Shown: positions 2,068 to 21,143, counted from the stretch's first letter. The stretch: 64,000 nucleotides of DNA from Streptomyces aquilus (GCF_003955715.1 NZ_CP034463.1:9424001-9488000); one strand, 5' to 3'. The notes: generated from the letters alone by a model not told the origin. Numbers and translations are program-made.

Positions 2068-3384
2068 TCAGGCGAGCGTGACCTCCACCGGCAGCTTCTT
2101 GATGCCGTTGACGAAGTTGGAGCGCACCCGCGGTACGTCTCCGACGAGCCGGATGTCGGCGAGCCGGGGGATGAGCTCCTCGAACATGATGCGGATCTCG
2201 GTGCGGGCCAGCAGGTTGCCCAGGCACAGGTGGGGGCTGCCCTTGCCGAAGGTGACGTGGTCGTTGTTCTGCCGGGCCACGTCGAAGTCGTAGGGGTTGC
2301 CGAAGACCTCCTCGTCGCGGTTGCCGGAGGCGTACCACATGACGACCTTGTCGCCCTCCTTGACCTTCTTGCCGCCGAGTTCGACGTCACGGGTGGCGGT
2401 GCGGCGGAAGTGGTAGACGGGGGAGGCCCAGCGCAGGAACTCCTCGACCGCGGTCGGGATGAGGGACGGGTCCTCCTGCAACCTCGCGAGCTGCTCGGGG
2501 TGTTGCAGCAGTGCCAGCATCGAGTGGGTGATGGTGTGCCGCGTGGTCTCGTTGCCGGCGACGACCAGGAGCAGGAAGTAGTTGTCGAAGTCCTGCGGCG
2601 AGAGCGGGACGCCGTCGCGCGGGGTGGTGTTGACCAGCTTCGACACCAGGTCCGTGCCGGCGCCGCCGCGCCGCTGCCGCGCCAACTCCCGGCCGTACTC
2701 GAAGACTTCGAGGGAGGCGGGGGAGCGGAAGGGCAGGTCGCGGTACTGCTCGCTCTCCGCGCTGTGCAGCAGCACGTCCGCGTAGTCGGGGTCGGTGTTG
2801 CCGATGATCCGGTTGCCCCAGTCGATGAGCTGCTGGTTGTCCTCCGGCGGGACGTCGAGGAGGCGGGCGAGGACGTTGATGGGGAAGTCCGCGGAGACGT
2901 CGGCGACGAAGTCGAAGGTCCCCTTGGCGAGCGCCGCGTCGAGGGTCTTCGCGGTCAGGCCGCGCAGGAAGTCCGTGTAGCTGTTGATGACGTTCGCGCC
3001 GAACTGGCGCTGGATGACGCTGCGCAGGGCGCGGTGGCGGACGCCGTCCAGCTCCAGGATGGAGGCCCGCTTCTTGATCTGGTCGTCGTCGACCTCCTCC
3101 AGGTTCACGAACCGGGTGGAGGTGAAGGTCTCGGCGTCCCGGTCGACGCGGGCGATGTCGGCGTGCCGGGTCACCGACCAGAAGCCGGAGTTGGGCACCT
3201 CCTCCGGCTGCCAGTGCACCGGGTCCTCGTGGCGCAGGGTGTGGAACATCCGCCACGGGGTGACCCCGTCGGCGAAGTTGTCGAGGTCGGCCAGGTTGAC
3301 GTGCGCCAGCGGCAGGGGTTCCTGGAGGCGGGCGCGGAGTTCGTCGGCGTCGGTGGGGGTGACGGGAAGGGCGGGGCTGTTCAT
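2068..3384 (-). CDS. Cytochrome P450 (CYP125/CYP142-like group), island copy A
   Basis: This 438-residue soluble P450 has the classical parts: I-helix AGNETTRHTITH with the acid-threonine pair, the ExxR helix EEFLRW, and the heme loop FGKGSPHLCLGN with the proximal cysteine. The ATG at 3384 is preferred over one at 3399 because GGAGA precedes it at a usual distance. It follows the glutamine-synthetase-like gene on the same strand after 44 nt, so the two probably share a transcript. Electrons would come from the ferredoxin and reductase encoded divergently at 5041-6452. Resemblance to steroid/terpenoid-oxidising CYP125-like enzymes is my impression; the substrate is more likely set by the surrounding catabolic island. 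Confidence 0.9.
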   Translation of the reverse strand: MNSPALPVTPTDADELRARLQEPLPLAHVNLADLDNFADGVTPWRMFHTLRHEDPVHWQPEEVPNSGFWSVTRHADIARVDRDAETFTSTRFVNLEEVDDDQIKKRASILELDGVRHRALRSVIQRQFGANVINSYTDFLRGLTAKTLDAALAKGTFDFVADVSADFPINVLARLLDVPPEDNQQLIDWGNRIIGNTDPDYADVLLHSAESEQYRDLPFRSPASLEVFEYGRELARQRRGGAGTDLVSKLVNTTPRDGVPLSPQDFDNYFLLLVVAGNETTRHTITHSMLALLQHPEQLARLQEDPSLIPTAVEEFLRWASPVYHFRRTATRDVELGGKKVKEGDKVVMWYASGNRDEEVFGNPYDFDVARQNNDHVTFGKGSPHLCLGNLLARTEIRIMFEELIPRLADIRLVGDVPRVRSNFVNGIKKLPVEVTLA

Positions 3385-3428
3385 GGTGGTGGTCTCCATC
3401 GGGCGTACGGCGGGAAGTCCTGGGTGGC

Positions 3429-4781
3429 TCAGAGGTGGTGGGCGTACTCGGTGAACTCCCAGTCGGTGACGTGCCGTCCGAAGCGTTCGACCTCGTTGCG
3501 CTTGTAGGAGAGGTAGGAGGCGGTGAAGTCCTTGCCGAGGAGTTCGGTCAGGTCGCTGTCCGCCTCCAGGGCGTCCAGCGCGGCGGACAGGTTCATCGGC
3601 AGCAGGGCCGCCTTGGCGGTGTCGTAGCCGTATCCCTCCAGTGGCGCGGGAGGCTCCGCGCCGGCCTGGATGCCGAGCAGGGCGGCGGCGAGGGTGGCGG
3701 CGATGAGCAGGTAGGGGTTGGCGCTGGCGTCGCCGAGCCGCAGTTCGAGTCGGGCTCCCGAGCCGCGCTCGGGCGGGATGCGGACCATGGCGCTGCGGTT
3801 GTCCAGGCCCCAGTCGATCAGCCACGGGGCCAGGGTGTCGGGGCCGAAGCGCCGGTAGGAGTTGACGGTCGGGTTGGCGAGCGCGGCGAGGGCCGGGGCG
3901 TGGGCGAGGATGCCCGCGATGGCGTGCCGGGCGGTGGCCGAGAGGCCGTACGTCCCCGCGGGGTCGTCGAAGGCGTTGCGGCCGTCCTCGTCCTCGCAGG
4001 ACAGATGGAGGTGGAAGCCGGAGCCGCCGGCGTCGTTGAACGGCTTGGCCATGAAGGTGGCCAGCCGTCCTTCCCTGCGGGCGAGTTCCTTGACCGCCGC
4101 CTTGAAGCGGAACGCGCGGTCGGCCGCCGAAAGGGCTTCGCTGTGCGTCAGGTTGATCTCGAACTGTCCGCCGTCGAACTCGTGGTTGCCGCTGAGGGTG
4201 CCGATGCGCAGGTCCCGCAGCAGGCGCAGAGTGCGCAGGAGGTGGTTGTCGGGGTCGGCGCGCAGCCCGGCGGTGTAGACGACACCGGCATCACGCGCGT
4301 ACCGGCGCCAGCCGCCGCTCGCGGGGTCCGTCTCGCACAGGAAGTACTCCAGCTCGGGTCCGACGACCGGCCGCAGTCCCTGGTCCTGGCAGCGGGCGAG
4401 GACCGCACGCAGCAGGTCACGGGGTGATTCCGGGGCGGGTGCGCCGGTCGCGGGGTCGATGACCTCGCCGAGGCAGGCGGCCACGCCCGGCTCCCACGGC
4501 AGTGCGACGAGCGTGCCGAGATCCGGTCGTACGGCGATGTCGGGCAGCCCGGCGTCGAGCCCGCCCGCGACCGGGACCACGTCGCCCTGCGGGCTGGTGT
4601 GGTAGACGGCGCGACAGAAGGCGAGCCCGTGCTCGCAGGCGGCGGGCAGGTGGTCCAGGAGGACGTCCCGGGCCCGTTCGGTGCCGATCAGGTCGGGATA
4701 GGTCACCCGGACCACGTCGATCCCCTCGGCGGCGAGCCGCTCCATGTGCTGACGGATGTCCGGTGTGGTGGATGCGCTCAC
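3429..4781 (-). CDS. Glutamine-synthetase-like amine gamma-glutamyl ligase
   Basis: The 450-residue protein belongs to the GS superfamily. It has the metal and ATP-binding motifs VGPELEYFL, NHEFDGGQFEIN, FMAKPFNDAGGSGFHLHLS and the arginine/glutamate motif RIPPERGSGARLELRLGD. It is shorter than housekeeping GlnA, as in PuuA/GlnA3-type enzymes that join glutamate to amines. I chose the GTG at 4781 because GGAG lies 6 nt upstream; the longer frame to 4850 has no site. It leads a minus-strand operon with P450-A. A PuuC-like dehydrogenase, a PuuD-like hydrolase and a permease nearby support a role in gamma-glutamylating an amine substrate. From memory, GS-like genes also accompany P450 operons for secondary amine use in mycobacteria. 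The substrate is not shown by sequence. Confidence 0.85.
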   Translation of the reverse strand: MSASTTPDIRQHMERLAAEGIDVVRVTYPDLIGTERARDVLLDHLPAACEHGLAFCRAVYHTSPQGDVVPVAGGLDAGLPDIAVRPDLGTLVALPWEPGVAACLGEVIDPATGAPAPESPRDLLRAVLARCQDQGLRPVVGPELEYFLCETDPASGGWRRYARDAGVVYTAGLRADPDNHLLRTLRLLRDLRIGTLSGNHEFDGGQFEINLTHSEALSAADRAFRFKAAVKELARREGRLATFMAKPFNDAGGSGFHLHLSCEDEDGRNAFDDPAGTYGLSATARHAIAGILAHAPALAALANPTVNSYRRFGPDTLAPWLIDWGLDNRSAMVRIPPERGSGARLELRLGDASANPYLLIAATLAAALLGIQAGAEPPAPLEGYGYDTAKAALLPMNLSAALDALEADSDLTELLGKDFTASYLSYKRNEVERFGRHVTDWEFTEYAHHL

Positions 4782-4809
4782 CGATGGCTCCTCGGGCGCT
4801 GGGGGTGTT

Positions 4810-4823
4810 GTTTGGTGCCAAAC
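4810..4823. promoter_or_regulatory. Palindrome GTTTGG-TG-CCAAAC
   Basis: This is a perfect 6-2-6 inverted repeat, 29 bp upstream of the GS-like start. A related copy, GTTTGA-AG-CCAAAT, lies at 4917-4930, and inverted GCCAAACG/CGTTTGGC arms occur before the permease. It could be a second operator class in the island, perhaps for the MarR protein at 21159, but the regulator is unknown. Confidence 0.45.
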
Positions 4824-4869
4824 GGTATGGCCGGCTTCATGGCCCCGCAAGAGGGTGTCCCCAAAAAAT

Positions 4870-4883
4870 TATCCGCATGGATA
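4870..4883. promoter_or_regulatory. Operator-like palindrome TATCC-GCAT-GGATA (copy 1)
   Basis: This perfect 5-4-5 inverted repeat lies between the divergent GS/P450-A and ferredoxin/reductase operons. The same arms with a different centre recur at 11382-11395 and 20501-20514, each before another operon of the island. It is probably bound by one or both TetR proteins encoded at 10649 and 20568. Confidence 0.65.
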
Positions 4884-5040: not shown

Positions 5041-5229
5041 ATGAAGGTCGTCGTCGACATGAACAAGTGCCAGGACCACGGACAGTGCGTCTTCGCCGCC
5101 CCCGACGTCTTCCACCTCGACGACAACGGCCGCCTGGCCTACGTCAGCGACCCCGACGACGCGCTGCTCGACGAGGTCGAGGAAGCCGCCGACGTCTGCC
5201 CGCTCCAGGCCATCCGGATCGAGGCCTGA
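5041..5229 (+). CDS. 3Fe-4S ferredoxin, P450 electron donor (copy A)
   Basis: The 62-residue protein starts at the ATG following GGAGG. Cluster ligands are seen as CQDHGQC near residue 10 and the later CP in ADVCPLQAI. A histidine sits where a 4Fe-4S ferredoxin would have its second cysteine, which is typical of actinobacterial P450-partner ferredoxins. The ferredoxin reductase gene begins two bases after its stop codon. It should carry electrons from that reductase to one or both P450s. Confidence 0.92.
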   Translation: MKVVVDMNKCQDHGQCVFAAPDVFHLDDNGRLAYVSDPDDALLDEVEEAADVCPLQAIRIEA

Positions 5230-5231: not shown

Positions 5232-6452
5232 ATGAGCGCACGCATCGTGGTCGCCGGCGCCTCGATGGCCGGCCTCCGCGCCGCCGAGCAACTGCGCGCG
5301 GCCGGCTGGACCGGCGCGATCACACTGATCGGCGACGAGCCGCACATGCCCTACAACCGGCCTCCCCTCTCCAAGGAGGTCCTGGCCGGCAAAGCCCCCT
5401 TCGAGTCACTGGCCTTCCGCCCCCGCGCCAGCGTCTCCGACGTCGAATGGCGCCTCGGCACCAAGGCCGTCGCCTCCCGCCTCTGCGAGCGCGTCGTCGA
5501 ACTCGACGACGGCGAGGCGCTCTCGTACGACGGACTCGTCGTCGCCACCGGCATGCGCCCCCGGCGCCTGAACTGCCCCGGCCCGCGCACCGGCCGCCAC
5601 ACCGTGCGCACCCTCGACGACGCCCAAGGACTGCGCGCGGCCCTGACCCGGCCCGGCGCCCGCGTCGTCGTGGTCGGCGCGGGCTTCATCGGCTGCGAGG
5701 TCGCCGCCACCGCCGTGGGACTCGGCGTCACCGAGGTCACCGTCGTCGACCCGCTGCCGCTGCCCATGGTCGGCCCGCTCGGCGAGCAGCTGGGCCGCGC
5801 GCTGCTCAAGCGGCACGAAGAGCGCGGAGTGCGCTTCGTGCTCGGCACCGGCGTGACCGGCTTCGAGGGCGAGGACCAGGTCACCGGGGTCGTGCTGTCC
5901 GACGGGACGGTACTGCCGGCCGACGTCGTCGTGGAGTCGGTCGGCTCCCTGTCCAACGTCGAGTGGCTGGACGGCAACGGCCTCGACCTCACCGACGGCG
6001 TCCTCACCGACGAACTGCTGCGCGTCGGTGGCCGTCCGGAGGTCGTCGCGGTCGGCGACGTCGCCCGCTTCCCCAACGCCCGCTACGACGGCGTCCCCCG
6101 CCGCGTCGAGCACTGGTGCATCCCCACCGACACCGCGAAACACGCGGCGAAGGCACTCGTCGCCCATCTCACCGGCGGCGAGAGCGACTTCGCGCCGTTC
6201 GCCCCGCTGCCCACCTTCTGGAGCGACCAGCACGAGTTCCGCCTCCAGTCCTTCGGCGCACCCGCGCTCGGCAGGGACGACGTCCGGGTGCTCGACGGTG
6301 ACCTCGGCGGCGATGTCGTCGCCGGTTACCACAGCGCCGGCCGCCTGGTGGGCGTCGTCGCCCTGGGCGGACCCGCCGCCGCGTCCAGTGCCGCCCGCTA
6401 TCGCGCCGAACTGCTCAAGCAGCCCGCCCTCACTGCTCAAGGAGCCCCCTGA
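5232..6452 (+). CDS. FAD-dependent ferredoxin reductase (NAD(P)H)
   Basis: The 406-residue flavoprotein begins at the ATG at 5232, within two bases of the ferredoxin stop. It carries an N-terminal FAD motif VVAGASMAGLRAAEQL, the PYNRPPLSKE segment, the central NAD(P)H site VVVGAGFIGCEVA and the second FAD motif VVAVGDVARFPN. This architecture matches putidaredoxin-reductase-type enzymes. It is the only reductase of this kind in the island, so it probably serves both ferredoxins and both P450s. Confidence 0.92.
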   Translation: MSARIVVAGASMAGLRAAEQLRAAGWTGAITLIGDEPHMPYNRPPLSKEVLAGKAPFESLAFRPRASVSDVEWRLGTKAVASRLCERVVELDDGEALSYDGLVVATGMRPRRLNCPGPRTGRHTVRTLDDAQGLRAALTRPGARVVVVGAGFIGCEVAATAVGLGVTEVTVVDPLPLPMVGPLGEQLGRALLKRHEERGVRFVLGTGVTGFEGEDQVTGVVLSDGTVLPADVVVESVGSLSNVEWLDGNGLDLTDGVLTDELLRVGGRPEVVAVGDVARFPNARYDGVPRRVEHWCIPTDTAKHAAKALVAHLTGGESDFAPFAPLPTFWSDQHEFRLQSFGAPALGRDDVRVLDGDLGGDVVAGYHSAGRLVGVVALGGPAAASSAARYRAELLKQPALTAQGAP

Positions 6453-6454: not shown

Positions 6455-7258
6455 ATGACCGTTCGCGGATTCCTCCACCCCAAGACGGCGACCGGCGCCG
6501 CCTCCCTGATCCCCTCCCCGCCCTGGCGCTACTCCGGTGACCTGCTCACCGTCGAGTACCGCACCGACCCCGCACGCGTCCGCGAACTCCTGCCCGAACC
6601 TCTGGAGTTGGCCGACGAGGACCCGGGCGCCGTGGCGTTGATCTGGGCCGACTGGCAGTCCTGCTCGGCCGACGGCGGCGAGCTGCTCGACCCGGTGCTC
6701 TCCCAGTACAAGGAGGCCTTCGCGGTCGTCCGCTGCCAGTACCGGGGGCAGACCTACTCGCGGTGCGTCTACATCTGGGTCGACAAGGACTTCGCCATCG
6801 CGCGGGGCCTGCACCAGGGTTATCCGAAGAAGCTCGGCTCGATCCACCAGACGCGCCCGCACCCCTACGGGCCCGCCCCGCGCATCGAGGCCGGGGCCCG
6901 CTTCGGAGCGACGCTCGCCGCGGCCGACCGGCGCCTGGCCCAGACGGTCGTGACCCTGCGCGAGCCGTCGGAGACCAACGGGTTCGTCAACGGCCACCCG
7001 ATGGCCCACCACCGCTGGCTGCCCTCGATCGAGAAGGGCAAGGGACTCGCGCTCGACGAGCTGATCGAGTCCGGCGCGGCGTCCTTCGAGGCCGGACAGG
7101 CGTGGCGCGGTGACGCCGAGCTGGAGCTGTTCGAGGCCCCCACCGAGGAACTGGCCCGGCTGGAGATCCGCGAGCCGATCGCCGCCTACTACCGGCAGGT
7201 CGGCGTCGTCTGGGACGGCGGACGTCTGCTGGAGTCCGGCATGTCCGGCGCCGAGTGA
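6455..7258 (+). CDS. Acetoacetate-decarboxylase-superfamily enzyme
   Basis: This 267-residue protein starts two bases after the reductase stop. It keeps the motif GYPKKLGSI; in true acetoacetate decarboxylase this lysine pair includes the Schiff-base lysine. Members of the superfamily also do aldol, retro-aldol and dehydration chemistry on keto acids. In this operon it sits before the meta-cleavage enzymes, where classical pathways have an isomerase, hydratase and aldolase that I do not find here. A role on a ring-cleavage product is therefore plausible. Family assignment is firm; the reaction is inferred. Confidence 0.8.
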   Translation: MTVRGFLHPKTATGAASLIPSPPWRYSGDLLTVEYRTDPARVRELLPEPLELADEDPGAVALIWADWQSCSADGGELLDPVLSQYKEAFAVVRCQYRGQTYSRCVYIWVDKDFAIARGLHQGYPKKLGSIHQTRPHPYGPAPRIEAGARFGATLAAADRRLAQTVVTLREPSETNGFVNGHPMAHHRWLPSIEKGKGLALDELIESGAASFEAGQAWRGDAELELFEAPTEELARLEIREPIAAYYRQVGVVWDGGRLLESGMSGAE

Positions 7259-7289: not shown

Positions 7290-8753
7290 ATGACCGACCA
7301 CACCCTCACCGTCGCCGGGGTCTCCGTCGACACCCGGCACTGGATCGGCGGCGAACGCGTCGCCTCCGGCGAGACGTTCACCGACGTCTCACCGATCGAC
7401 GGCAGCGTCATCGGCGAGATCTCCCGCGGTACGGCCACGGAGGCCGCGGCCGCCGTCGCCGCCGCCAAGGCCGCCTTCCCCGCCTGGGCCGCCACCCCGC
7501 GCGCCGAGCGCGCCCGCATCCTGCACGCCGTCGCCGACGGCGTCGAGAAGCGGCTCGAAGAACTCGCCGTCGTCGAGACCACCGACAACGGCGCCCTGCT
7601 GCGCTCGCACCGGCGCGGTGTCATGCCGCGCGTCGCGCACAACTTCCGCTTCTTCGCGGACTGGCTGCTGAAGCTGGACCACGAGGACTTCGAGACCCGC
7701 GGCCACACCAACCACGTCAGCTGGGACCCGGCGGGGCCGTCGGTCCTCATCACCCCGTGGAACGCGCCGCTGATGCTGGCGACCTGGAAGGTGGCCCCGG
7801 CGCTGGCCGCCGGGAACACGGTGGTCCTCAAGCCCGCCGAGTGGTCCCCGCTGACCGCCTCGCTCCTCGCCGACATCGCCGCCGAGGCCGGACTGCCCGC
7901 CGGTGTGCTCAACGTCGTCCAGGGCTATGGCTCCGAGATCGGCGACGCCCTCACCTCGCACCCGGACGTGCGCCGCATCAGCTTCACGGGCTCGGTGCCG
8001 ACCGCCCGGCGGATCGCCGCCTCCGCCGCCGCGAACCTCACCCCGCTGAGCCTCGAACTCGGCGGCAAGTCCCCCCTGTTGGTGTTCGCCGACGCGGATC
8101 TGGACCTCGCGGTCGACCTCGCGGTGGAGCAGTACGACAACGCCGGACAGGTCTGCCTCGCCGCCACCCGCCTCCTCGTGGAGGAGTCGGTCGCGGAGGA
8201 GTTCACCAGGCGCTTCGTCGACAAGGCGAGCACATTGAAGCAGGGCGACCCGCGAGACGAGGCCACCGACATCGGCCCCACCGTCCACCCCCGCCAGCTG
8301 GAGAAGATCGACGGCTTCGTGCGGCGGGCCGTGGCGGCCGGGGCGCGGGCGGTCATCGGCGGCCGGCGCAAGGACGGCCAGTACTACGCGCCGACCCTGC
8401 TGACGGAGGTCGCCCAGGACTCCGAGATCGTCCAGGAGGAGGTGTTCGGTCCCGTCCTGACGCTCCAGACCTTCACCACCGAGGACGAGGCCGTCCGCCT
8501 CGCCAACGACACCCGCTTCGGCCTCGCCGCCACCCTCGCCACCGGCGACCACGAGCGCGCCGCACGCGTCACCGCACGACTCGTCGCGGGCACCGTCTGG
8601 GTCAACTGCTTCTTCGTACGCGACCTCCAGGCCCCCTTCGGCGGCTCCCGCCACTCCGGCGTCGGACGCGAGGGCGGCACCTGGAGCTTCGACTTCTACT
8701 GCGACCTGAAGAACACCGTCACCGCCCCGAAGGGATGGAAGGACCATGGGTGA
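7290..8753 (+). CDS. hpaE: Aldehyde dehydrogenase, HpaE-like (5-carboxymethyl-2-hydroxymuconate semialdehyde dehydrogenase)
   Basis: The 487-residue NAD-dependent aldehyde dehydrogenase has the substrate/cofactor motif ITPWNAP, the general-base glutamate in LELGGKSP and the catalytic cysteine in AGQVCLAATR. Its last 8 nt overlap the extradiol dioxygenase gene. Placement directly before an HpaD homologue and an FAH-family gene is what supports the HpaE role, oxidising the semialdehyde made by ring opening. Sequence alone would also allow a related semialdehyde. Confidence 0.8.
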   Translation: MTDHTLTVAGVSVDTRHWIGGERVASGETFTDVSPIDGSVIGEISRGTATEAAAAVAAAKAAFPAWAATPRAERARILHAVADGVEKRLEELAVVETTDNGALLRSHRRGVMPRVAHNFRFFADWLLKLDHEDFETRGHTNHVSWDPAGPSVLITPWNAPLMLATWKVAPALAAGNTVVLKPAEWSPLTASLLADIAAEAGLPAGVLNVVQGYGSEIGDALTSHPDVRRISFTGSVPTARRIAASAAANLTPLSLELGGKSPLLVFADADLDLAVDLAVEQYDNAGQVCLAATRLLVEESVAEEFTRRFVDKASTLKQGDPRDEATDIGPTVHPRQLEKIDGFVRRAVAAGARAVIGGRRKDGQYYAPTLLTEVAQDSEIVQEEVFGPVLTLQTFTTEDEAVRLANDTRFGLAATLATGDHERAARVTARLVAGTVWVNCFFVRDLQAPFGGSRHSGVGREGGTWSFDFYCDLKNTVTAPKGWKDHG

Positions 8754-12888: not shown

Positions 12889-12924
12889 CGGCGGGGTCGG
12901 AAAAGGATCTCCCCTCACCCCCTT

Positions 12925-13013: not shown

Positions 13014-14465
13014 GTGGACAGTCAGACAGCGGTCGCCACCCAGACCGCTCACGACCCCTCCATGACAGGCAGGCTCAAGCCCGACTCGCTCGGCGTCCTC
13101 GGCATCCTCTTCTTCGTCCTCTCCGCCCAGGCGCCGCTCACCGGCATCGCCGGGGCCGTACCGATCGCGGTGGCCATCGGCAACGGCGCCGGCGTCCCGG
13201 CCGCCTACCTCGCGGCGGGCATCATCGTGCTGCTGTTCTCCGTCGGGTTCGTCGCCATGGGCCGCCATGTCGTGGACGCCGGGGCCTTCTACACCTACAT
13301 CGGCAAGGGGCTCGGCCGCACGACCGGCTCCGGCAGCGCCGGGATCGCCCTGTTCGCCTACTGTGCCGTCCAGGCCGCCATGTACGGGCTGTACGGCGCC
13401 ACGGTCAGCGGCCTGGTCGAGCACTACACCGACGTCCATGTGGCGTGGTGGATCTGGACCCTTGGCACCATGGTGGTCATCCAGGTGCTCGGCGCGTCGG
13501 GCATCGAGATGGGCGCCAGGATCCTCGCCGTCTTCGTGCTGGCCGAGTTCAGCATCCTGATCGCCTTCGCCCTCGTGACCCTGGTCAAGGGCGGCGGACC
13601 CGAAGGCCTCGGCTTCACGGACAGCTTCTCGCCGTCCGCCGCGCTGAGCGGCGCTCCGGGCGTGGCGCTGATGTTCGCCGTGGCGTCGATGTTCGGCTTC
13701 GAGGCCACCGCCATCTACGGCGAGGAAGCCCGCGAGCCCCGCAAGACCGTCCCCCGGGCCACCTACCTGGCGGTCGCCGTGGTCACCGGCTTCTTCGCCT
13801 TCACCTCCTGGATGCTGGTCTCCGCGCACGGTGCGTCCCGGGTCACGGGCGAGGCGGGCAAGGCACTGGGAAGCGGGGACGCCACCTCCTTCGTCTTCGC
13901 GCCGATCGCCGACCTGTTCGGCGGCTGGGCGGACGACGTCCTGCCGATCCTGCTGGCCACCTCCCTCTTCGCCGGCATCCTCGCCTTCCACAACTCCGCC
14001 AACCGCTACCTGTTCTCCCTCGGCCGCGAGCGGCTGCTGCCGCACGGACTGACCGCCCTCAACCGGCGGCACTCGCCCTGGGCGGCCGGGATCGTGCAGA
14101 CCCTCATCGCCGCGGTGCTGGTGCTGCCCTTCGCGATCCTGGGCAAGGACCCCGTGCTGACCCTCTTCTCCTGGTTCAGCGGGGTCGCGGTCCTCGGCGT
14201 CATGCTGCTGTACTTCCTGACGTCGGTGTCGGTCGTCGCCTTCTTCCGCCGCTCGCGCGCCGACACCCGGCCCTGGAACACCCTCGTCGCCCCCACCCTG
14301 GGCGCGCTCGGCATAGCCGGCGCCATCTGGCTCATCGTCGCCAACTTCACCACCCTCATCGGCGGCGACCGCACCACGGCTCTCTGGCTGGAGCTCACCG
14401 TCCCGGCGGTCCTGCTCCTCGGCGTCGCCGCCGCCCGGCTGACGCGCACCCGGACCGCCGGCTGA
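13014..14465 (+). CDS. APC-family amino acid/amine permease (PuuP-like)
   Basis: The 483-residue membrane protein has about 12 hydrophobic helices and begins with the APC first-helix pattern GILFFVLSAQAPLTG. A middle GFEATAIYGEEAREPRKTVP matches the conserved helix 6 to loop region of amino acid/polyamine permeases. The GTG at 13014 is favoured over a GTG at 13005 because AGGTGAT, a near-perfect anti-16S match, lies just upstream. Beside PuuC- and PuuD-like genes it is the likely uptake system for the amine handled by the GS-like ligase. Confidence 0.85.
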   Translation: MDSQTAVATQTAHDPSMTGRLKPDSLGVLGILFFVLSAQAPLTGIAGAVPIAVAIGNGAGVPAAYLAAGIIVLLFSVGFVAMGRHVVDAGAFYTYIGKGLGRTTGSGSAGIALFAYCAVQAAMYGLYGATVSGLVEHYTDVHVAWWIWTLGTMVVIQVLGASGIEMGARILAVFVLAEFSILIAFALVTLVKGGGPEGLGFTDSFSPSAALSGAPGVALMFAVASMFGFEATAIYGEEAREPRKTVPRATYLAVAVVTGFFAFTSWMLVSAHGASRVTGEAGKALGSGDATSFVFAPIADLFGGWADDVLPILLATSLFAGILAFHNSANRYLFSLGRERLLPHGLTALNRRHSPWAAGIVQTLIAAVLVLPFAILGKDPVLTLFSWFSGVAVLGVMLLYFLTSVSVVAFFRRSRADTRPWNTLVAPTLGALGIAGAIWLIVANFTTLIGGDRTTALWLELTVPAVLLLGVAAARLTRTRTAG

Positions 14466-14472: not shown

Positions 14473-14506
14473 CCGATGCGGCCGGGACGGCTCCCGGCCG
14501 CATCGG
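14473..14506 (+). terminator. 15-bp perfect hairpin between permease and dehydrogenase
   Basis: The arms CCGATGCGGCCGGGA and TCCCGGCCGCATCGG pair perfectly over 15 bp around a 4-nt loop, 7 nt after the permease stop. The next gene is 48 nt further on the same strand. It may be a terminator or an attenuator that lowers expression of the downstream pair. Confidence 0.6.
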
Positions 14507-14553
14507 CCTCCGTGCCGTACGGCACGAGACCAACGAATCGGAGACGGGGCATC

Positions 14554-16044
14554 GTGCTCAACGCCACCCACGAAGAACTCCTGCGCCGCGCCAAGGAAGT
14601 CGACCTCCCCACGCGCCACCACATCGACGGCGCGGACGAAGCCGGCGGCGGAGCCGCGTTCGCCGTCGTGTCCCCGCGCGACGGCCAGACCCTGGCCCAG
14701 GTCGCCGACGCGGGCGAGGCGGAGGTCGATCTCGCGGTCGCCGCCGCGCGCCGCGCCTTCGACACCGGCCCCTGGCCGCGCCTGGCGCCCGCCGACCGCG
14801 GCCGTGCCCTGCTGCGGATCGCCGACCTCCTGGAGCGGCACCGCGAGGAACTGGCCCTGACCGTCACCCTGGAGATGGGCAAGCCCATCACGGACGCCTA
14901 CGGCATCGAACTGCGCGCCGCGATCAACACGTTCCGCTTCTACGGCCAGCTCGCCGACAAACTCACCGACGAGTCACCCCACACCGCCCCCGACGCCCTC
15001 GCCCTGGTCACCCGGGAACCGGCAGGTGTCGTCGGCGCCGTCGTCCCGTGGAACTTCCCGCTGACGCTGGCGAGTTGGAAGCTCGCGCCGGCGCTCGCCG
15101 CGGGCTGCACCGTCGTACTGAAGCCCTCGGAGAACTCCCCGCTGTCCGCGCTGCTGCTCGCCCGGATCGCCACCGAGGCCGGACTGCCGCCCGGCGTCCT
15201 CAACGTCGTCAACGGCGAAGGCCCCGTCGCCGGGCGGGCGTTGGGACTCCATCCCGACGTGGACGTCCTCGCCTTCACCGGCTCGACCGCCGTCGGCCGG
15301 CACTTCCTGCGCTACTCCGCCGACTCCAACCTCAAGCGGGTCTGGCTCGAACTCGGCGGCAAGTCACCCAACATCATCCTCCCCGACGCCCCGGACCTGG
15401 AGCAGGCAGCCGCCACCGCCGCCTGGGGCATCTTCTTCAACCAGGGCGAGATGTGCACCGCGCCCTCCCGGCTGCTGGTGCACTCCTCGATCGCCGACCG
15501 GGTCACCGAGGCGATCGTCGGGCGGGCCCGCGCACTGCGGGTCGGCGACCCGCTCGACCCGGCCACCGAGATGGGCGCGATGGTCGGCGCGAACCACCTC
15601 GAACGCGTCCTCGGCCATATCGGCACCGGCCTCGACGAAGGAGCCCGGCTGCGCGCCGGCGGCGGCCGCACCCTCGCCGAGACGGGCGGCAGCTTCCTGC
15701 GCCCCACCGTCTTCGACCAGGTGGACCCCGGCATGCGGCTGGCCCGGGAGGAGATCTTCGGCCCGGTCCTGTCCGTCCTCACCTTCGACGATCTGGACGA
15801 GGCGGTACGGCTCGCCAACGCCACCGAGTACGGCCTCGCCGCCGGTCTGTGGACCTCCGACCTGTCCACCGCCCACCAGGTCTCCCGTGCCCTCAAGGCC
15901 GGCACCGTCTGGGTCAACTGCTACGAGGAGGGCGACCTCACCGTCCCCTTCGGCGGCATGAAGCAGTCCGGCAACGGCCGCGACAAGTCCGCCCACGCCC
16001 TCGAGAAGTACACCGAACTGAAGACCACCTGGATCCAGCTGTGA
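14554..16044 (+). CDS. Aldehyde dehydrogenase, PuuC-like (gamma-glutamyl-aminoaldehyde dehydrogenase)
   Basis: This 496-residue NAD(P) aldehyde dehydrogenase has VPWNFPLTLASWK, the base glutamate in LELGGKSPN, the catalytic cysteine in NQGEMCTAPSR and the late EEIFGPVLSVLTF. The pattern resembles E. coli PuuC. I chose the GTG at 14554, with GGAGACGGGG upstream. The last 4 nt overlap the amidotransferase-type hydrolase, a PuuC-PuuD pairing. It would oxidise a gamma-glutamylated aldehyde to the acid. Confidence 0.85.
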   Translation: MLNATHEELLRRAKEVDLPTRHHIDGADEAGGGAAFAVVSPRDGQTLAQVADAGEAEVDLAVAAARRAFDTGPWPRLAPADRGRALLRIADLLERHREELALTVTLEMGKPITDAYGIELRAAINTFRFYGQLADKLTDESPHTAPDALALVTREPAGVVGAVVPWNFPLTLASWKLAPALAAGCTVVLKPSENSPLSALLLARIATEAGLPPGVLNVVNGEGPVAGRALGLHPDVDVLAFTGSTAVGRHFLRYSADSNLKRVWLELGGKSPNIILPDAPDLEQAAATAAWGIFFNQGEMCTAPSRLLVHSSIADRVTEAIVGRARALRVGDPLDPATEMGAMVGANHLERVLGHIGTGLDEGARLRAGGGRTLAETGGSFLRPTVFDQVDPGMRLAREEIFGPVLSVLTFDDLDEAVRLANATEYGLAAGLWTSDLSTAHQVSRALKAGTVWVNCYEEGDLTVPFGGMKQSGNGRDKSAHALEKYTELKTTWIQL

Positions 16045-16742
16045 CCCGCCCCCTGATCGCGATCCCCGCCCGTTTCGCGACGTCCACCTCAGCGCTGCGG
16101 TACGCCGCCGAAGTCAACGCCCGTGCCCTGATCGAGGCCGTCTGGCGCGCCGGCGGAGAACCGGCGAGCATCCACCCCGCCTCCAGGGACGTGGCCGAAC
16201 GCCTCGCCCGCTTCGACGGCGTCCTGCTCCCCGGTGGCGGCGACCTCGCCCCGCACCGCTACGGCGCCACCGACACCCACGACACCGTCTACGACGTCGA
16301 CGACGTCCAGGACGACTTCGACCTCGAAGTCGCCCGCGCAGCCCTCGACTCGGGCCTGCCCCTGCTCGCGATCTGCCGCGGACTCCAGGTCGTCAACGTC
16401 GCCCTCGGCGGCACCCTGGAACAGGACATGGGCGGCCCCGAGCGCGCCCACCGGCACGTCATCCACCCCGTGGCCATCCAGCGGGGCACACTCCTGGAAC
16501 AGGCCACCGGGCAGGAGAAGATCGAGGCGTCCTGCTACCACCACCAGCGCGTCGACCGCGTCGGAGTGGGCCTCGCGGTCACCGCGCGGGCGGCCGACGG
16601 CACGGTGGAGGGACTCGAACTGCCAGGTGCCCAGGGCTGGTTCACGGCCGTCCAGTGGCACCCGGAGGACACCGCCCACGAAGACCCCGCCCACCAGGCC
16701 CTGTTCGACGCGCTCGTCCAGGCCGCCCACGACAGAAGCTGA
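16041..16742 (+). CDS. Class I glutamine amidotransferase-type gamma-glutamyl hydrolase (PuuD-like)
   Basis: The 233-residue protein has the nucleophile motif AICRGLQVVNVALGG and the His-Glu pair in QWHPED, the triad of PuuD/peptidase C26 enzymes. VLLPGGGDLAPHRYG near residue 60 is also typical of this subgroup. Its GTG overlaps the dehydrogenase stop (GTGA). It should remove the glutamate attached by the GS-like enzyme after aldehyde oxidation. Confidence 0.87.
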   Translation: MTRPLIAIPARFATSTSALRYAAEVNARALIEAVWRAGGEPASIHPASRDVAERLARFDGVLLPGGGDLAPHRYGATDTHDTVYDVDDVQDDFDLEVARAALDSGLPLLAICRGLQVVNVALGGTLEQDMGGPERAHRHVIHPVAIQRGTLLEQATGQEKIEASCYHHQRVDRVGVGLAVTARAADGTVEGLELPGAQGWFTAVQWHPEDTAHEDPAHQALFDALVQAAHDRS

Positions 16743-16744
16743 GA

Positions 16745-17534
16745 CGAGGACAAGGCTCTCTTCGGCCGCGGGCGTCAAGCCCCCTGCCTCGCACCGGAAC
16801 TGGACGACGCTCCGCTGGGCCGGGTGCTGAAGAGCGTGGCCACGGCCGGGGCATCGGACCGCGCGACCTCGCCATCGCCCAGGTGGAGCGGCTCCTGCGC
16901 GCGACCGGAGACGGACGACTGGGACCGCCGCCGCCCATCGGGTCGGCGCTCTCGCGCACGTCGCGCCCTCGCCGGCCCGGCACCGGCGGGAGCGTAGACC
17001 GCGATCCGGACACGTTCGTCCTGGACGCATGGGCCGAACCGGCCGCCGATCCATGGGAAGCCCTGGCCCTGGCCCATGCCGCGGTCCGGGCCGCGGCCCG
17101 GACCCGCCCGGCGGAGCCGGCACCTTGGGTGGGCGCGTCGGCGGCGGTGCGGCTGCTGGGGCGACCGATCGCCGAAGTCCGGCCGGTGTGGGCCGAGATC
17201 CGCGCGCGCGACCCGGGGCACCGGGATGCGCATCTCCACGCTCTGGGCTGTCTCTACGCTCTGGGCTGTCTCTCGCCCGAGGAGCAGAGAAGCCACAGCG
17301 CTCTTCGGGACTTCCTCGACGAGAGACCAGCGCGGTCATACCGCCCGGACGCCCCGGCGGCATGCCTGCCGTCGACGACCCGCGTCCCACTGGCCGGTTG
17401 CCGGCCGTATCCGCCACGCCGCCGCCGTCGCCGACCTGGGGCTGCTCGCCTACGCCTTCGTGCGCGCGGGGCGCGCGGCGGAGGCCCACCCCGTCTTCTC
17501 GGCGATCGACGGGCAGGTGACGCCTTGGCCGTGA
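16745..17534 (+). pseudogene. Degenerate gene, TPR-like hypothetical (DUF4034-like?)
   Basis: No single frame makes a plausible protein. Protein-like pieces succeed one another in different forward frames: ELDDAPLGRVLKSVATA near 16800; RDLAIAQVERLLRATGDG near 16860; DWDRR near 16920; a long helical stretch around 17010-17330 in another frame; and AAVADLGLLAYAFVRAG ending in a stop at 17534. Together they resemble a helical repeat protein common in streptomycetes, broken by several frameshifts. The relation to DUF4034 is a weak guess. It also contains an 18-bp tandem duplication. Confidence 0.5.
17238..17273. repeat. 18-bp perfect tandem duplication
   Basis: ACGCTCTGGGCTGTCTCT occurs twice end to end inside the degenerate gene. 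It adds six codons without shifting frame and looks like a recent slippage event in a decaying sequence. Confidence 0.9.
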
Positions 17535-17596
17535 GGGCACGACGGGGACGGTGGAGCGCTCTACACACTGGACCCGTCCGTAGGTTCTCGGGCGTC

Positions 17597-18445
17597 TCAG
17601 CCGCGCTCGGCCGCCTCGACGACGTTGGTCAGCAGCATCGCCCTCGTCATGGGGCCGACACCGCCGACGGGCGGGGCGAGTGAGCCGGCGACCTGGTCCA
17701 CGTCCGGATGGACATCGCCGAGAACACCCTCCACGGTCCGGGTGATGCCGACGGACAGCACGGTGGCGCCGGGCTTGATCCAGTCGGCTCGGACCAGATG
17801 CGCCACCCCGGCCGCCGCCACGACCACGTCGGCGACACGGGCGTGGGCCGCGGTGTCCTGGGTGGCCTCGTGGCAGAGGGTCACGGTGGCGTGCTCGGTG
17901 GCGCGGGTCAGCATCAGGCCGAGCGGGCGGCCCACGGTGATCCCGCAGCCGATGACACAGAACTGCCGCCCGGTGATGGGCACTTGATGGCGCCGCAGCA
18001 GATCGATGATGCCGCGCGGGGTGCAGGGCAGCGCCCCCGGGATGCCCAGCACCAGCCGGCCCAGATTCGCCGGGTGCAGCCCGTCGGCGTCCTTGTCGGG
18101 GTCGACGAGCTCCAGCACCGCGTGGGTGTCGATGTGGGCCGGCAGCGGCAGTTGGACGATGAAGCCGGTGCAGGCCGGGTCGGCGTTGAGCCGGAGCACG
18201 GCCGCCTCGACGTCGGCCTGCGTGGCGGTGGCGGGCAGTTCCACCCGGATCGACGCGATGCCGACCTGGGCGCAGTCGCGGTGCTTGCCGCCGATGTAGG
18301 AGCGGCTGGCCGGGTCGTCCCCGACCAGGATGGTGCCCAGCCCGGGGGAGACGCCGTGCCTCTTCAACACCTCCACCCGCCGGGCGAGTTCACGTTTGAT
18401 GTCGGCCGCTGCGGCCTTGCCGTCGAGCAGCGTCGCGGTGGTCAT
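17597..18445 (-). CDS. folD: Methylene-THF dehydrogenase/cyclohydrolase
   Basis: The 282-residue FolD keeps the active-site tyrosine and lysine in [10 protein letters not shown], the folate-site signature QLPLPAHI...[11 protein letters not shown] and [10 protein letters not shown]. The nucleotide-binding loop reads [13 protein letters not shown] instead of the usual VIGRSxIVGxP, so it is a divergent, probably second FolD of the genome. It interconverts methylene-THF and 10-formyl-THF. It lies third in a gcvT-like/purU/folD operon, 26 nt after purU. In that setting it should oxidise methylene-THF produced upstream. Confidence 0.92.
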
Positions 18446-18471: not shown

Positions 18472-19317
18472 TCAGGCGAAGACGACGGTGCGGGAACCGG
18501 TGAGGACGACCCGGTCCTCCGCGTGCAGCCGGACCGCGCGGGCCAGGACGAGCCGCTCGACGTCCCGGCCGATGGCGACCAGTTCCGGCGCGGTGTGGCG
18601 ATGTCCCACGCGGACCACGTCCTGCTCGATGATCGGGCCCTCGTCGAGGTCGGCGGTCACGAAGTGGGCGGTGGCGCCGATGAGTTTGACGCCTCGCTCA
18701 TGGGCCTGGTGGTAGGGCTTGGCGCCCTTGAAGCCCGGCAGGAAGGAGTGGTGGATGTTGATGACCCGGCCGGACAGCCTGCGGCAGAGGTCGTCGGAGA
18801 GCACCTGCATGTAGCGGGCGAGCACCACGAAGTCGACCTGGTGCTCGCCGACGAGCCGCAGCAGCTCTGCCTCCGCCTGCGGCTTGGTGTCGCGGGTGAC
18901 CGGGAGGTGGACGAAGGGGATGCCGTACCGCTCCGCTATGGGCGCCAGATCGGGGTGGTTGGAGACGATCAGCGGGATGTCGACGGGCAGTTCGCCGAGT
19001 CCCCAGCGGTAGAGCAGGTCGACGAGGCAGTGATCGAACTTGGAGACCATCAGCAGCACCCGGCGACGCTGCTCCTCGGGCCGTAGGGTCAGCACCGGGT
19101 CGAACCGGGCCAACCGCAGGGCGAGTTCGTCCCGCAGCCGCTCGGTGCCGGCCTCGGGGGTCTCCAGGCAGACGCGGAGGGTGAAGACGCCGGTGCCGGG
19201 GTCGGAGAACTGGGCGCTCTCCAGGATGTTGCCCTTGGCCCCGGTGATGCCACCGGACAGGGCGTGGACGATGCCGGGCTGGTCGGGGCAGGTGACGGTC
19301 AGGATGTAGCGCTGCAT
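18472..19317 (-). CDS. purU: Formyltetrahydrofolate deformylase
   Basis: The 281-residue protein has an N-terminal ACT domain ([19 protein letters not shown]) and then a formyl-transferase-like domain with catalytic Asn-His in [10 protein letters not shown] and the aspartate in [10 protein letters not shown]. PurU hydrolyses 10-formyl-THF to formate and THF, clearing one-carbon units. It lies 19 nt after the GcvT-like gene, which makes a complete route from a methyl or methylene donor to formate. Confidence 0.93.
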
Positions 19318-19336: not shown

Positions 19337-20458
19337 TCAGGCCCGTACGCGGGTGCGCTCGGGGTCGTACACGGGGGTGGGCCGCACCGTGGCGTCGGCC
19401 TGGCAGCCGTCGGCGGCGACCGCGATCAGCGCGGTCCCCGGCTTCACCGCGTCGCGGTGCACACGGGCGAGCCCCAGAGTGGCGCCGTCGAGCACGGGCG
19501 AGGCCACGGCCATCGTCACGTAGCCCACGTCCCGTCCGTCCAGCTCCAGCCGTGCGCCCTCGGCCGCCTCGGGTGCGGTGTCCACGACGACGCTGACCAC
19601 CCGCCCCGGCGCGGTGCCCTTCGTGGCCAGCAGCGCGTCCCGGCCCTGGAAGGGGCCCTTGTCGAAGTCGACCGCCCAGCCCATCCGGCATTCGAACGGG
19701 GTGACGGTGCGGTCGTACTCCAGCTCACCCATGATCATCCCGGCCTCGGTGCGGCAGGTCAGGAGGGCGAGCGCGCCGGCGGCCCGCACTCCGAGGTCGG
19801 CTCCCGCGTCGAGGACCGCGTCCCACAGGTCCAGCGCCCGCTCGCGCGGCACCTGGATCTCGTAGCCGAGTTCGGCGGTGAACCCGATCCGGCTGACCTG
19901 CGCACCGATGCCCGCGACCAGGACGTCCCGGACGAACGTGTAGTAGGGGAAGGCGGAGTTGGAGACGTCGACGTGCGTGAGCCGCTGGAGCACCTCGCGG
20001 CTGCGCGGCCCTTGCAGGGTCAGTACGGCGAACTCGTCGCGGCGCTCGGTGACCGTGGTGCCGTCGGGGGCGTGTGCGGTCAGGCATGTCGAGGTGGCCG
20101 GGTTGCCGCCGGTGACGACCACATGTCCGGGCGCGAGGACGGCCACGGTCACGTCGTCGATCATGAAGCCGTCGGTGTCGACGACCACGCCGTAGGCGAT
20201 ACGGCCCTCGCCGAGCCCGCGGACGCTCCGCGAGAAGACGGCGTCGACGGCGGCGAGCGCGCCCTCGCCCTCGACGTGCCACTTGTAGAGCATCGAGTAG
20301 TCCAGCGCGCCGGCGGAGGTACGGATCGCCTCGTACTCCTCGGCCGGGTCCGTGAGGAACAGGGGCACGGCATGGCCGTAGACGTCGATCCACTCCTCGA
20401 CGCGGTCGTCGTAGCGGGGTGAGAACGGGGTGGCGCTCAGTCCTTCGGGGACGGCCAT
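19337..20458 (-). CDS. GcvT-family THF-dependent methyl/aminomethyl transferase
   Basis: The 373-residue protein has the GcvT fold signatures. These are GVVVDTDGFMIDDVTV, which keeps the folate-site aspartate, then LTLQGPRSREVL, then GFTAELGYEIQVP and a C-terminal beta-barrel region. The glycine-cleavage T protein works with other gcv genes; none are here. The family also includes demethylases that pass C1 groups from methylated amines or methoxy-aromatics to THF. With purU and folD behind it, a catabolic demethylase is the best reading. A TATCC-N4-GGATA site lies 43 bp upstream. Confidence 0.82.
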   Translation of the reverse strand: MAVPEGLSATPFSPRYDDRVEEWIDVYGHAVPLFLTDPAEEYEAIRTSAGALDYSMLYKWHVEGEGALAAVDAVFSRSVRGLGEGRIAYGVVVDTDGFMIDDVTVAVLAPGHVVVTGGNPATSTCLTAHAPDGTTVTERRDEFAVLTLQGPRSREVLQRLTHVDVSNSAFPYYTFVRDVLVAGIGAQVSRIGFTAELGYEIQVPRERALDLWDAVLDAGADLGVRAAGALALLTCRTEAGMIMGELEYDRTVTPFECRMGWAVDFDKGPFQGRDALLATKGTAPGRVVSVVVDTAPEAAEGARLELDGRDVGYVTMAVASPVLDGATLGLARVHRDAVKPGTALIAVAADGCQADATVRPTPVYDPERTRVRA

Positions 20459-20500
20459 GAGGGCTCCAGGGGAGAGGGGAAGCGCGATGCAGCGAGAATC

Positions 20501-20514
20501 TATCCATCTGGATA
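20501..20514. promoter_or_regulatory. Operator-like palindrome TATCC-ATCT-GGATA (copy 3)
   Basis: This perfect repeat with the same arms as copies 1 and 2 lies between the divergent gcvT-like operon and TetR copy 2. A further GGATA half-site followed directly by GTTTGG stands at 20526-20536. It fits autoregulation by the adjacent TetR and co-control of the one-carbon operon. Confidence 0.68.
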
Positions 20515-20567
20515 ACTTGTCAATAGGATAGTTTGGAGGGCATGGGCCGCAGACGAGGAGGAGGCCG

Positions 20568-21143
20568 ATGACCGCCGTGACGGGGGAGGACGCCCGGCCG
20601 GGCTACGGCGAGGGACGCGAGGCGCTGCTCGCCGCCGCGGTCCGGGTGGTGGCCCACGGCGGCCTGCGGAAACTGACATACCGTTCCGTCGCCGCGGAGG
20701 CCGGCGTCACGCACGGGCTCGTCGCCCACCACTTCGGCTCCCTCGACACGCTGCTGGAGCAGGCACTCCAGTGGTGCGTCGAGCGGAGCATCGAGACGTC
20801 CTCGCTCGTCCCGGCAAGCGGCAGGCTGGAGGACTTCGTCGCGACCCTCGCCGACTTCATCGCGGCCGACCCCGACCTACAGGCGTTCCAGTACGAGCTC
20901 AAACTCGAAGCGAACCGCAGACCGGAACTGCGGCACCATGTCGAGACGCTCTACGACGCCTACCGCGACGCCGTCCGCGCGGCCCTGGCCTGCTTCGAAG
21001 TGCCGCAGGAGATGGCGGAGACGGTCTTCGCGGCCCTGGACGGCCTGGTCTTCCACCAGGTCACGGCGGGCACCCCGGCCCGCACCGAGGAAGGCGTCGT
21101 GATGCTGCGGCGCCTGCTCGCGGCGTATCGCGCGCAGACGTGA
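20568..21143 (+). CDS. TetR-family regulator (island copy 2)
   Basis: The 191-residue protein is paralogous to the TetR at 10649. The N-terminal HTH reads LTYRSVAAEAGVTHGLVAHHFGS, and the ligand domain shares ADPDLQAFQYEL. GAGGAGG precedes the ATG. It is divergent from the gcvT-like operon with the shared palindrome between them. The two TetR copies may recognise the same box and answer to different pathway intermediates; that is inference. Confidence 0.88.
   Translation: MTAVTGEDARPGYGEGREALLAAAVRVVAHGGLRKLTYRSVAAEAGVTHGLVAHHFGSLDTLLEQALQWCVERSIETSSLVPASGRLEDFVATLADFIAADPDLQAFQYELKLEANRRPELRHHVETLYDAYRDAVRAALACFEVPQEMAETVFAALDGLVFHQVTAGTPARTEEGVVMLRRLLAAYRAQT

Follow-up and report, generated by a model that had tools for sequence, protein, structure and literature searches.

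A conserved Streptomyces gene island that may degrade phenethylamine-type amines with their nitrogen masked as a gamma-glutamyl amide

We describe a gene island in a 64,000-nucleotide stretch of the Streptomyces aquilus genome (the window, which is positions 9424001-9488000 of a single 10.39 Mb Streptomyces contig) that brings together a glutamine synthetase (GS)-like ligase, ring-cleavage enzymes related to those of homoprotocatechuate catabolism, and enzymes resembling PuuC and PuuD. The island is a real and widespread catabolic unit. On balance we favour the reading that it is one regulon for breaking down an amine of the phenethylamine type, such as tyramine, dopamine or a near relation of these, and that a gamma-glutamyl amide would protect the nitrogen until after the ring has been opened. 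The starting points are the genes themselves, their conservation, the palindromes that they share and the loss of ammonium-site residues from the GS-like ligase, and from these we infer each reaction, the substrate and the regulator that would bind the palindromes.

Genes were placed by codon composition together with family scans (Pfam and NCBIfam). The HpaD-like protein was aligned against a collection of species genomes, which gave 406 relatives, and the best 80 of these loci were inspected with flanks of up to 10 kb. The genes of the island are listed below; fractions give the number of these 80 loci that carry the gene at 50% or greater identity and coverage.

2068-3399, minus strand: P450A, a cytochrome P450 with a normal I-helix (AGNET) and haem motif; PF00067; 69/80
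3429-4850, minus strand: GSL, a GS-like gamma-glutamyl amine ligase; Pfam Gln-synt_C; start uncertain, perhaps 4778; 74/80
5041-5229, plus strand: FdA, a small ferredoxin of the FdB family; 74/80
5232-6452, plus strand: FdR, a flavin adenine dinucleotide (FAD) ferredoxin reductase; PF07992; 74/80
6455-7258, plus strand: ADC, an MppR/acetoacetate-decarboxylase-like enzyme; TIGR04460, PF06314; 79/80
7290-8753, plus strand: HpaE-like muconic semialdehyde dehydrogenase; TIGR02299 536 bits (638 needed); 80/80
8746-9672, plus strand: HpaD-like LigB-type extradiol dioxygenase; PF02900; TIGR02298 125 bits (316 needed); PDB 8iq8; 80/80
9694-10539, plus strand: FAH-fold decarboxylase/isomerase-like enzyme; PF01557; HpaG C-terminal model 213 bits (cut-off 276); 79/80
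10649-11251, plus strand: TetR1 regulator; PF00440/PF17940; 72/80
11473-12645, plus strand: P450B, an XplA-like P450 of an optional module; PF00067; PDB 8q5j 801 bits, XplA 319 bits; 14/80
12676-12888, plus strand: FdB, ferredoxin of P450B; PF13459/PF13370; 13/80
13014-14465, plus strand: APC-family amine/amino-acid permease; PF13520; 68/80
14476-16044, plus strand: ALDH2, a PuuC-like gamma-glutamyl-gamma-aminobutyraldehyde dehydrogenase; PRK09847 568 bits (cut-off 850); PDB 4lih; 71/80
16041-16742, plus strand: PuuD-like hydrolase of gamma-glutamyl-gamma-aminobutyrate (gamma-glutamyl-GABA); Peptidase_C26 170 bits; PRK11366 73.5 bits (cut-off 266); PDB 6vtv; 71/80
17597-18445, minus strand: FolD methylene-tetrahydrofolate dehydrogenase/cyclohydrolase, optional module; NF010789 434 bits, exceeding the cut-off; 10/80
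18472-19317, minus strand: PurU formyl-tetrahydrofolate deformylase, optional module; TIGR00655 336 bits, exceeding the cut-off; 5/80
19337-20458, minus strand: stand-alone GcvT-like folate enzyme, optional module; NF053776 202 bits and GcvT 183 bits, both below cut-off; 1/80
20568-21143, plus strand: TetR2 regulator, a TetR1 paralogue found by family scan; 54.6% identity; 1/80
21159-21761, minus strand: MarR regulator; PF01047; 44/80

Every gene that the original prediction, made from the window sequence alone, had named for this island was recovered by Pfam, NCBIfam or PDB matches, with FdA identified from its reading frame and its 60% identity to FdB. The prediction had overlooked ADC, and its island ended at 21143, leaving the MarR gene just outside. 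The genes with the lowest counts, down to GcvT and TetR2, sit at the edge of the flank or past it, and the simple gene caller used overlooked most genes in L140 and L152-L154 (L numbers denote individual loci).

The grouping is not a chance one, as the same neighbours recur among the best 80 of the 406 HpaD-like relatives. For counts of the core enzymes, operators, motifs and distant regions we used looser labels (at least 45% identity, or at least 30% in distant loci). Among the 70 Streptomyces loci with 7 kb or more of sequence to either side, a seven-enzyme core (GSL, HpaE, HpaD, FAH, ADC, ALDH2 and PuuD) is complete in 65, and P450A, the reductase and the permease are additionally present in 60. 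The exceptions to the core are L037, L050, L065 and L083, which lack ALDH2 and PuuD, and L092, which lacks GSL at the threshold used. S. cyaneochromogenes and S. bicolor are among the species with the island. Of a further 20 regions taken from less closely related genomes, 17 belong to other genera and three to the same genus, and several lie on contigs that end early; HpaE, HpaD and FAH occur together in 18 of these 20, accompanied by P450A in 14, GSL in 14, ADC in 14, FdA/FdR in 12 and the permease in six. One run on a Novosphingobium plasmid holds a 2Fe-2S ferredoxin, an aldehyde dehydrogenase (ALDH), FAH (75%), ADC (55%), HpaE-like (53%), GSL (37%), P450 (40%) and HpaD-like (56%) genes, with no PuuD listed in the run. 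The earlier suggestion that the blocks form one system is thus borne out by synteny in Streptomyces, in other actinomycete genera and on this plasmid. Across the wider taxonomic class the HpaD-like gene was found in 30/394 sampled genomes, and at 76% or greater identity it is in 84/392 sampled Streptomyces genomes, about one fifth. In L155 and L157 an HpaD-like gene (57-59%) stands by itself with no island around it, and we keep these two loci as a result against the grouping.

Comparison of the window's own intergenic stretches brought out a palindrome that recurs at three promoters of the island. This palindrome and two further operator-like sites lie as follows.

4810-4823: second operator-like palindrome, GTTTGnnnnCAAAC; two exact places in the genome; dyad in 65/70 GSL|FdA intergenics
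4870-4883: TATCCnnnnGGATA, in the divergent promoter of the core, in the gap between GSL and FdA
11382-11395: TATCCnnnnGGATA, in the P450B promoter; one mismatch or fewer in 14/14 TetR1|P450B intergenics
12923-12936: diverged operator copy, TTGCCAAACGGATA, before the permease; best site of the FdB|APC stretch in the window
20501-20514: TATCCnnnnGGATA, in the GcvT/TetR2 divergent promoter; same position in L146, which is from another family

The palindrome TATCCnnnnGGATA is found at four places in the whole genome, three of them within the island; a reversed control pattern has no occurrences in the genome, and TATCCnnnnGGATA arose in none of 100 shuffles of the window. We surveyed 103 other loci amounting to 2.02 Mb (the 80 best, the 20 distant and three plasmid regions) and found 52 exact copies, all 52 at the same promoters or their equivalents (37 between GSL and FdA, two between GSL and ADC, ten between TetR1 and P450B and three beside GcvT/TetR2). 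With no more than one mismatch it is present in 71/72 intergenics between GSL and FdA (or ADC), compared with 6/1440 shuffled ones. At the same stringency it occurs in 0/53 TetR1|APC intergenics of loci that lack P450B, which we count as a result against shared control. A diverged form, TTG(C/T)CnnnnGGATA, is nevertheless the top-scoring site of 45 or more of these 53 intergenics and of 11/13 FdB|APC intergenics; the best sites of the 53 lie mostly 73-82 bases upstream of the permease match. In the distant genomes L141 and L146 an exact copy adjoins a TetR2-like gene. TetR1 and TetR2 are paralogues, as had been suggested, with their identity extending over 183 residues, and may be the proteins that bind these sites. 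Because so rare a palindrome is common to the core, P450B and GcvT promoters and to their equivalents in other loci, we conclude that the island is probably one regulon; together with the diverged copy at the permease, this makes independent induction of the blocks, which would have spoken against the original prediction, unlikely.

In the scheme that we favour, the amine would be imported by the APC permease, or made from tyrosine or 3,4-dihydroxyphenylalanine (DOPA) by a decarboxylase, and GSL would convert it into its gamma-glutamyl amide. Where this amide is gamma-glutamyl-tyramine, P450A, together with FdA and FdR, would turn it into a catechol by ortho-hydroxylation. The HpaD-like enzyme would then open the ring, the HpaE-like enzyme would oxidise the resulting semialdehyde and the FAH-like enzyme would decarboxylate the product. 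The MppR-like ADC, acting as a hydratase-aldolase, would then add water and split off pyruvate so that gamma-glutamyl-4-aminobutanal remains, which ALDH2 would convert to gamma-glutamyl-GABA and the PuuD-like hydrolase to GABA and glutamate.

What joins the two halves of this scheme, and was not part of the original prediction, is that ring cleavage would supply the PuuC and PuuD substrates. In the 4-hydroxyphenylacetate pathway, according to a passage of PMC12718150, a hydroxylase is followed by a 2,3-dioxygenase, semialdehyde dehydrogenase, isomerase, decarboxylase, isomerase, hydratase and aldolase, and the end products are pyruvate and succinic semialdehyde. If the CH2COOH side chain is replaced throughout by CH2CH2-NH-gamma-Glu, the products derived are pyruvate and gamma-glutamyl-4-aminobutanal, and in the derived atom mapping the aldehyde carbon comes from ring C6, the next carbon from ring C1 and the last two from the side chain. 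The amine half and the ring half, unrelated at first sight, would therefore converge on one compound, and each core enzyme would have a role. Gamma-glutamyl-4-aminobutanal is the substrate of PuuC, and the product of PuuC is the substrate of PuuD.

The proteins of the ring half fall within the predicted families. The HpaD-like protein has a LigB domain (PF02900, 87 bits), and its conserved-histidine motifs are kept in 103/103 (DSHW) and 91/103 (LAHVPT) orthologues, as in LigB-type class III extradiol dioxygenases. True HpaD or HpaE membership was considered and rejected, as the scores lie below the equivalog cut-offs; for the same reason we regard the HpaD-, HpaE- and FAH-like proteins as relatives rather than as HpaD, HpaE and HpaG proper, so that the original naming was right as to family only. 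The AGxE/DT motif is kept in all 87 of the genes labelled P450A. ADC scores 174 bits with TIGR04460, below the MppR equivalog cut-off of 380, and is closer to the MppR type than to classical acetoacetate decarboxylase (PRK02265, 45 bits). It matches the PDB entries 4jm3 and 4zbo at 155 and 153 bits and also chains of 6eej and 5upb, and the QGxPKKxG stretch is kept in 96/97 MppR-like genes. We take 4zbo to be Sbi00515 and 5upb to be Swit_4259; in the open-licence literature the one match for these two names concerns isocitrate lyase in Sphingomonas wittichii. In Saccharolobus, a passage of PMC7820114 reports that MppR-like genes lie near a catechol dioxygenase gene and are strongly induced on phenol, and an aldolase role in meta-cleavage is proposed there. 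No HpaI aldolase above cut-off and no HpaH hydratase above its cut-off of 351 were found in the S. aquilus genome; the control genomes gave neither, which indicates that both cut-offs are strict, and two HpaH-like relatives are encoded elsewhere in the genome (218 and 206 bits).

The amine half begins with GSL, which aligns with glutamine synthetases except that the FDGSS stretch is gone and Leu stands at the position of the flap Glu. FDGSS carries the ammonium-site residues D50 and S53, and the flap Glu is E327. Among 91 GSL orthologues FDGSS is found in none, and the flap Glu in none of the 85 that are readable at this position. A passage of PMC6529630 explains amine use by GlnA4 and PauA7, as opposed to glutamine synthetase, by similar residue changes, and states that PauA7 glutamylates aromatic monoamines. 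With a GS fold and the ammonium-site residues lost, GSL has the features of a GS-like amine ligase. The best PDB match of ALDH2, 4lih (594 bits), is named as a gamma-glutamyl-gamma-aminobutyraldehyde dehydrogenase, and the PuuD-like orthologues keep WHPE in 82/82 and the Cys motif in 78/82. The earlier PuuC and PuuD labels hold at the level of family matches and not as equivalogs. We rejected the PuuD-like gene as the main polyamine copy of the genome, in which the gene at 2319564 matches Peptidase_C26 more strongly. No PuuB-type oxidase was found among the 20 island proteins scanned, and the terms PuuC and PuuD gave no match in PMC8998196.

A possible source of the amine is seen in five variant islands (L072, L092, L111, L172 and L162, the last a plasmid of S. 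lunaelactis), in which a pyridoxal phosphate (PLP) decarboxylase gene (PF00282) lies 3' of FAH, with no P450A or electron carriers for it in the stretch examined. The best NCBIfam matches of the decarboxylase are tyrosine decarboxylases (119.8 bits, below the cut-off of 299). Among PDB chains it is nearest to 5hsi, listed as a putative decarboxylase, which we take to be the L. brevis tyrosine decarboxylase. At 75% or greater identity it occurs in 41/392 Streptomyces genomes, comprising 35 of the 84 with HpaD (at least 76%) and 6 of the 308 others (Fisher p = 8e-21, relatedness ignored). When the ten genomes with adjacent genes are set aside, HpaD is found in 25/31 decarboxylase genomes compared with 49/351 others (p = 1e-14, again ignoring relatedness), and a subtype of 63-67% identity has no link with HpaD (0/16). 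The window genome has its own copy at 907631-908986, outside the window. There (L164:9223-11197, from genome position 907631 on) a MarR-like gene, noted by eye, diverges from the decarboxylase, and homologues of this gene (fam1) lie beside the same decarboxylase in 6/9 other regions examined. In L143, L144 and L147 the island has a PLP decarboxylase of a second type as its neighbour (Pfam checked for L143 and L147).

The remaining genes of the island, P450B, FdB, GcvT, PurU and FolD, probably form an optional, co-regulated module for demethylation and one-carbon (C1) disposal. From the families present we read it as follows: P450B with FdB would O- or N-demethylate a methylated precursor, the GcvT-like protein would catch the formaldehyde on folate, and FolD and PurU would release the carbon as formate. 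The original prediction had proposed a methylated aromatic amine as the substrate; an aromatic amine fits, and methyl removal appears to be accessory, with P450B and FolD present in only the few loci given in the list. As the C1/methyl module is not in the core, the core probably handles an unmethylated tyramine- or dopamine-type amine, with use of methylated amines confined to loci that have the module. P450B lacks the usual acid-alcohol pair of the I-helix (VGHLDV), with AGxE/DT absent in 15/15. For 8q5j, a figure legend in the open-licence literature names a Streptomyces scabiei P450, and no function was found in the sections available. A GcvT orthologue is present in 11/14 P450B-bearing genomes and 0/14 P450B-less ones (Fisher p = 1.7e-5, relatedness ignored; all 14 P450B loci were covered, together with 14 chosen from 66 others). 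When four core proteins are used to build a tree, the other 14 P450B loci share a clade to which the window does not belong. The simplest interpretation is that P450B was gained or transferred twice, each time with GcvT; the 'no P450B' label of L109 in this tree is uninformative because that locus ends soon after HpaD/FAH.

Somewhat unlikely, in our judgement, is that this module serves an unrelated methylated compound such as a betaine and merely shares a regulator family with the core. The top NCBIfam match of the GcvT-like protein is the folate domain of trimethylamine N-oxide (TMAO) demethylase (NF053776), and this enzyme and the sarcosine and dimethylglycine oxidases, the nearest characterised relatives, all use N-methyl compounds; the module is also missing from most loci. 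However, it carries the operator-like site of the core, and P450B lies inside the core between TetR1 and the permease. In L146, from another family, the island is adjoined by GcvT (54%), TetR2 (57%) and a P450B gene (42%) that runs off the contig, and the L142 island has an internal VanA-type O-demethylase oxygenase (PF19112, VanA_C) and reductase with homologues in L151. Other distant loci carry PurU (L144, L145 and L148) or a 45% FolD (L150).

Less probable again is that the island performs masked ring cleavage of a different aromatic amine, for example of the octopamine/noradrenaline, benzylamine or aminophenol type. LigB-type dioxygenases also accept aminophenol (PDB 7txy), and a second class I amidotransferase-like gene is present in 10/18 distant regions, GS-like ligases paired with such amidotransferases being known to serve aniline. 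On our derivation, however, gamma-glutamyl-4-aminobutanal, the PuuC substrate, can arise only if the amine side chain has two carbons, and it is tyrosine decarboxylases that the associated decarboxylase most resembles. The kinship of the HpaE-, HpaD- and FAH-like enzymes with those of the Hpa pathway, and the two HpaH-like hydratases elsewhere in the genome, would also suit a meta-cleavage operon for free homoprotocatechuate (4-hydroxyphenylacetate catabolism) with a polyamine-type gamma-glutamyl module beside it by chance. We consider this improbable: GSL, PuuC-like and PuuD-like genes accompany the ring genes in 65/70 loci with common operator-like sites, the HpaD-like score is far below the true HpaD cut-off, HpaI is lacking above its cut-off, and neither an amine oxidase nor an HpaB-like hydroxylase is among the island genes scanned. 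A biosynthetic cluster built on MppR-like and P450 chemistry is very improbable, for although MppR (TIGR04460) is itself biosynthetic, the island is conserved across genera and the genes scanned include no assembly-line gene, comprising instead catabolic ALDHs, a ring-cleavage dioxygenase, a hydrolase and C1 enzymes.

Several observations weigh against catabolism of a glutamylated phenethylamine by one regulon, the reading that we prefer. None of the HpaD-, HpaE-, FAH-, MppR-, PuuC- and PuuD-like proteins reaches its curated cut-off. The HpaH-like relatives elsewhere mean that the MppR-like enzyme need not perform the hydration. The island has a single FAH protein and, among the genes scanned, no CHM-type isomerase gene; in A. 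baumannii, according to PMC12718150, the decarboxylase works well only when paired with another FAH-fold protein. In the 18 distant regions PuuD is found in nine and the PuuC-like ALDH in just two, some of these regions being clipped by contig ends. The decarboxylase is distant from characterised tyrosine decarboxylases, and its co-occurrence counts with HpaD, which ignore relatedness, were scored on just the few top candidates of each genome; both P450A and the PLP decarboxylase are missing from the stretch examined in L086 and L093. For the methyl module, GcvT is absent from 3/14 P450B genomes, L097 carries FolD without P450B, and a phylogenetic sign test of P450B against GcvT fell short of significance, which was unattainable because there are few independent gains and one or two independent pairs.

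Some features of the island and its relatives were noted in passing. An EmrB-type major facilitator superfamily (MFS) efflux gene at 334-1989 adjoins P450A; it was rejected as an island member, being present in 0/80 loci. The gap between PuuD and FolD (16743-17596) is conserved DNA, with pieces of 65-79% identity among the matches listed (20/25), chiefly in loci of the P450B type and also in L034 and L043; it has a weak reading frame whose sense appears to shift frame, and resembles a degenerate gene. The variant islands L086:27-5578 and L093:21-5916 lack P450A, ferredoxin, reductase and APC, and upstream they have genes for an ABC transporter of the dipeptide type, a further ALDH and a small protein that, in our impression, is SnoaL-like; perhaps these variants import a glutamyl or peptidyl amine. 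Outside Streptomyces a luciferase-like (LLM) oxidoreductase gene lies beside the island in 11/18 loci (family checked for L139:7586-8518 alone). The second class I glutamine amidotransferase-like gene of the distant loci was checked by Pfam for its member at L139:6888-7586, and a similar gene is found at L072:5222-5920.

Compared with known systems, the island resembles Hpa/Hpc pathways in the logical sequence of its steps, from extradiol cleavage through semialdehyde oxidation to decarboxylation of the FAH type (as set out in PMC12718150). It differs in that the genome has no HpaI above cut-off, its hydratases are just distant relatives encoded elsewhere, and the island has an MppR-like enzyme; a P450 is proposed in place of the flavin hydroxylase, and a glutamylated amine as substrate. 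With the Puu gamma-glutamyl-putrescine pathway it has in common a GS-like ligase, PuuC-like ALDH, PuuD-like hydrolase and permease, whereas it has no PuuB-type oxidase among the genes scanned and its glutamyl aldehyde would come from ring cleavage and not from amine oxidation. Like Streptomyces GlnA4 (gamma-glutamylethanolamide) and Pseudomonas PauA7, it uses a GS-like ligase that has lost ammonium-site residues; unlike the routes of these enzymes it includes ring cleavage, none being described in the relevant passages of PMC6529630. ADC belongs to the same subfamily as MppR and the 4zbo and 5upb enzymes, with the QGxPKK active-site stretch, but in contrast to MppR it would work in a degradative direction, a role proposed earlier for Saccharolobus phenol catabolism (in a passage of PMC7820114).

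The aniline systems bear comparison too. In the AtdA1/AtdA2 and TdnQ/TdnT pairs the aromatic amine is glutamylated before oxygenation, as we propose for the island, whereas ring opening there follows amine loss; we know of no convergence on PuuC/PuuD in aniline systems. Gamma-glutamyl-tyramine is also a building block of (methylo)furan cofactors. The pathway as a whole was not found described in the open-licence PMC papers searched, nor, judged by titles and abstract openings, was bacterial catabolism of gamma-glutamyl-dopamine or gamma-glutamyl-tyramine. We put at about even the chance that this is a new amine-oxidase-free catecholamine route, with glutamylation first, dedicated extradiol opening of gamma-glutamyl-dopamine, an MppR-type hydratase-aldolase and entry through gamma-glutamyl-GABA, to which the P450/folate module would add 3-methoxytyramine or N-methyltyramine in some strains.

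If the proposed scheme is right, two textbook pathways, meta-cleavage and Puu, would be joined at one shared intermediate, and the orphan acetoacetate-decarboxylase-like subfamily would gain a physiological role. The island also offers a rare and readily testable operator-like site. Streptomyces respond to catechol compounds including dopamine, according to a passage of PMC9814775, and a disposal route would bear on that signalling. Given the share of sampled Streptomyces genomes that carry the HpaD gene, many soil bacteria could, if the scheme holds, use tyramine- or dopamine-type compounds without amine oxidases.

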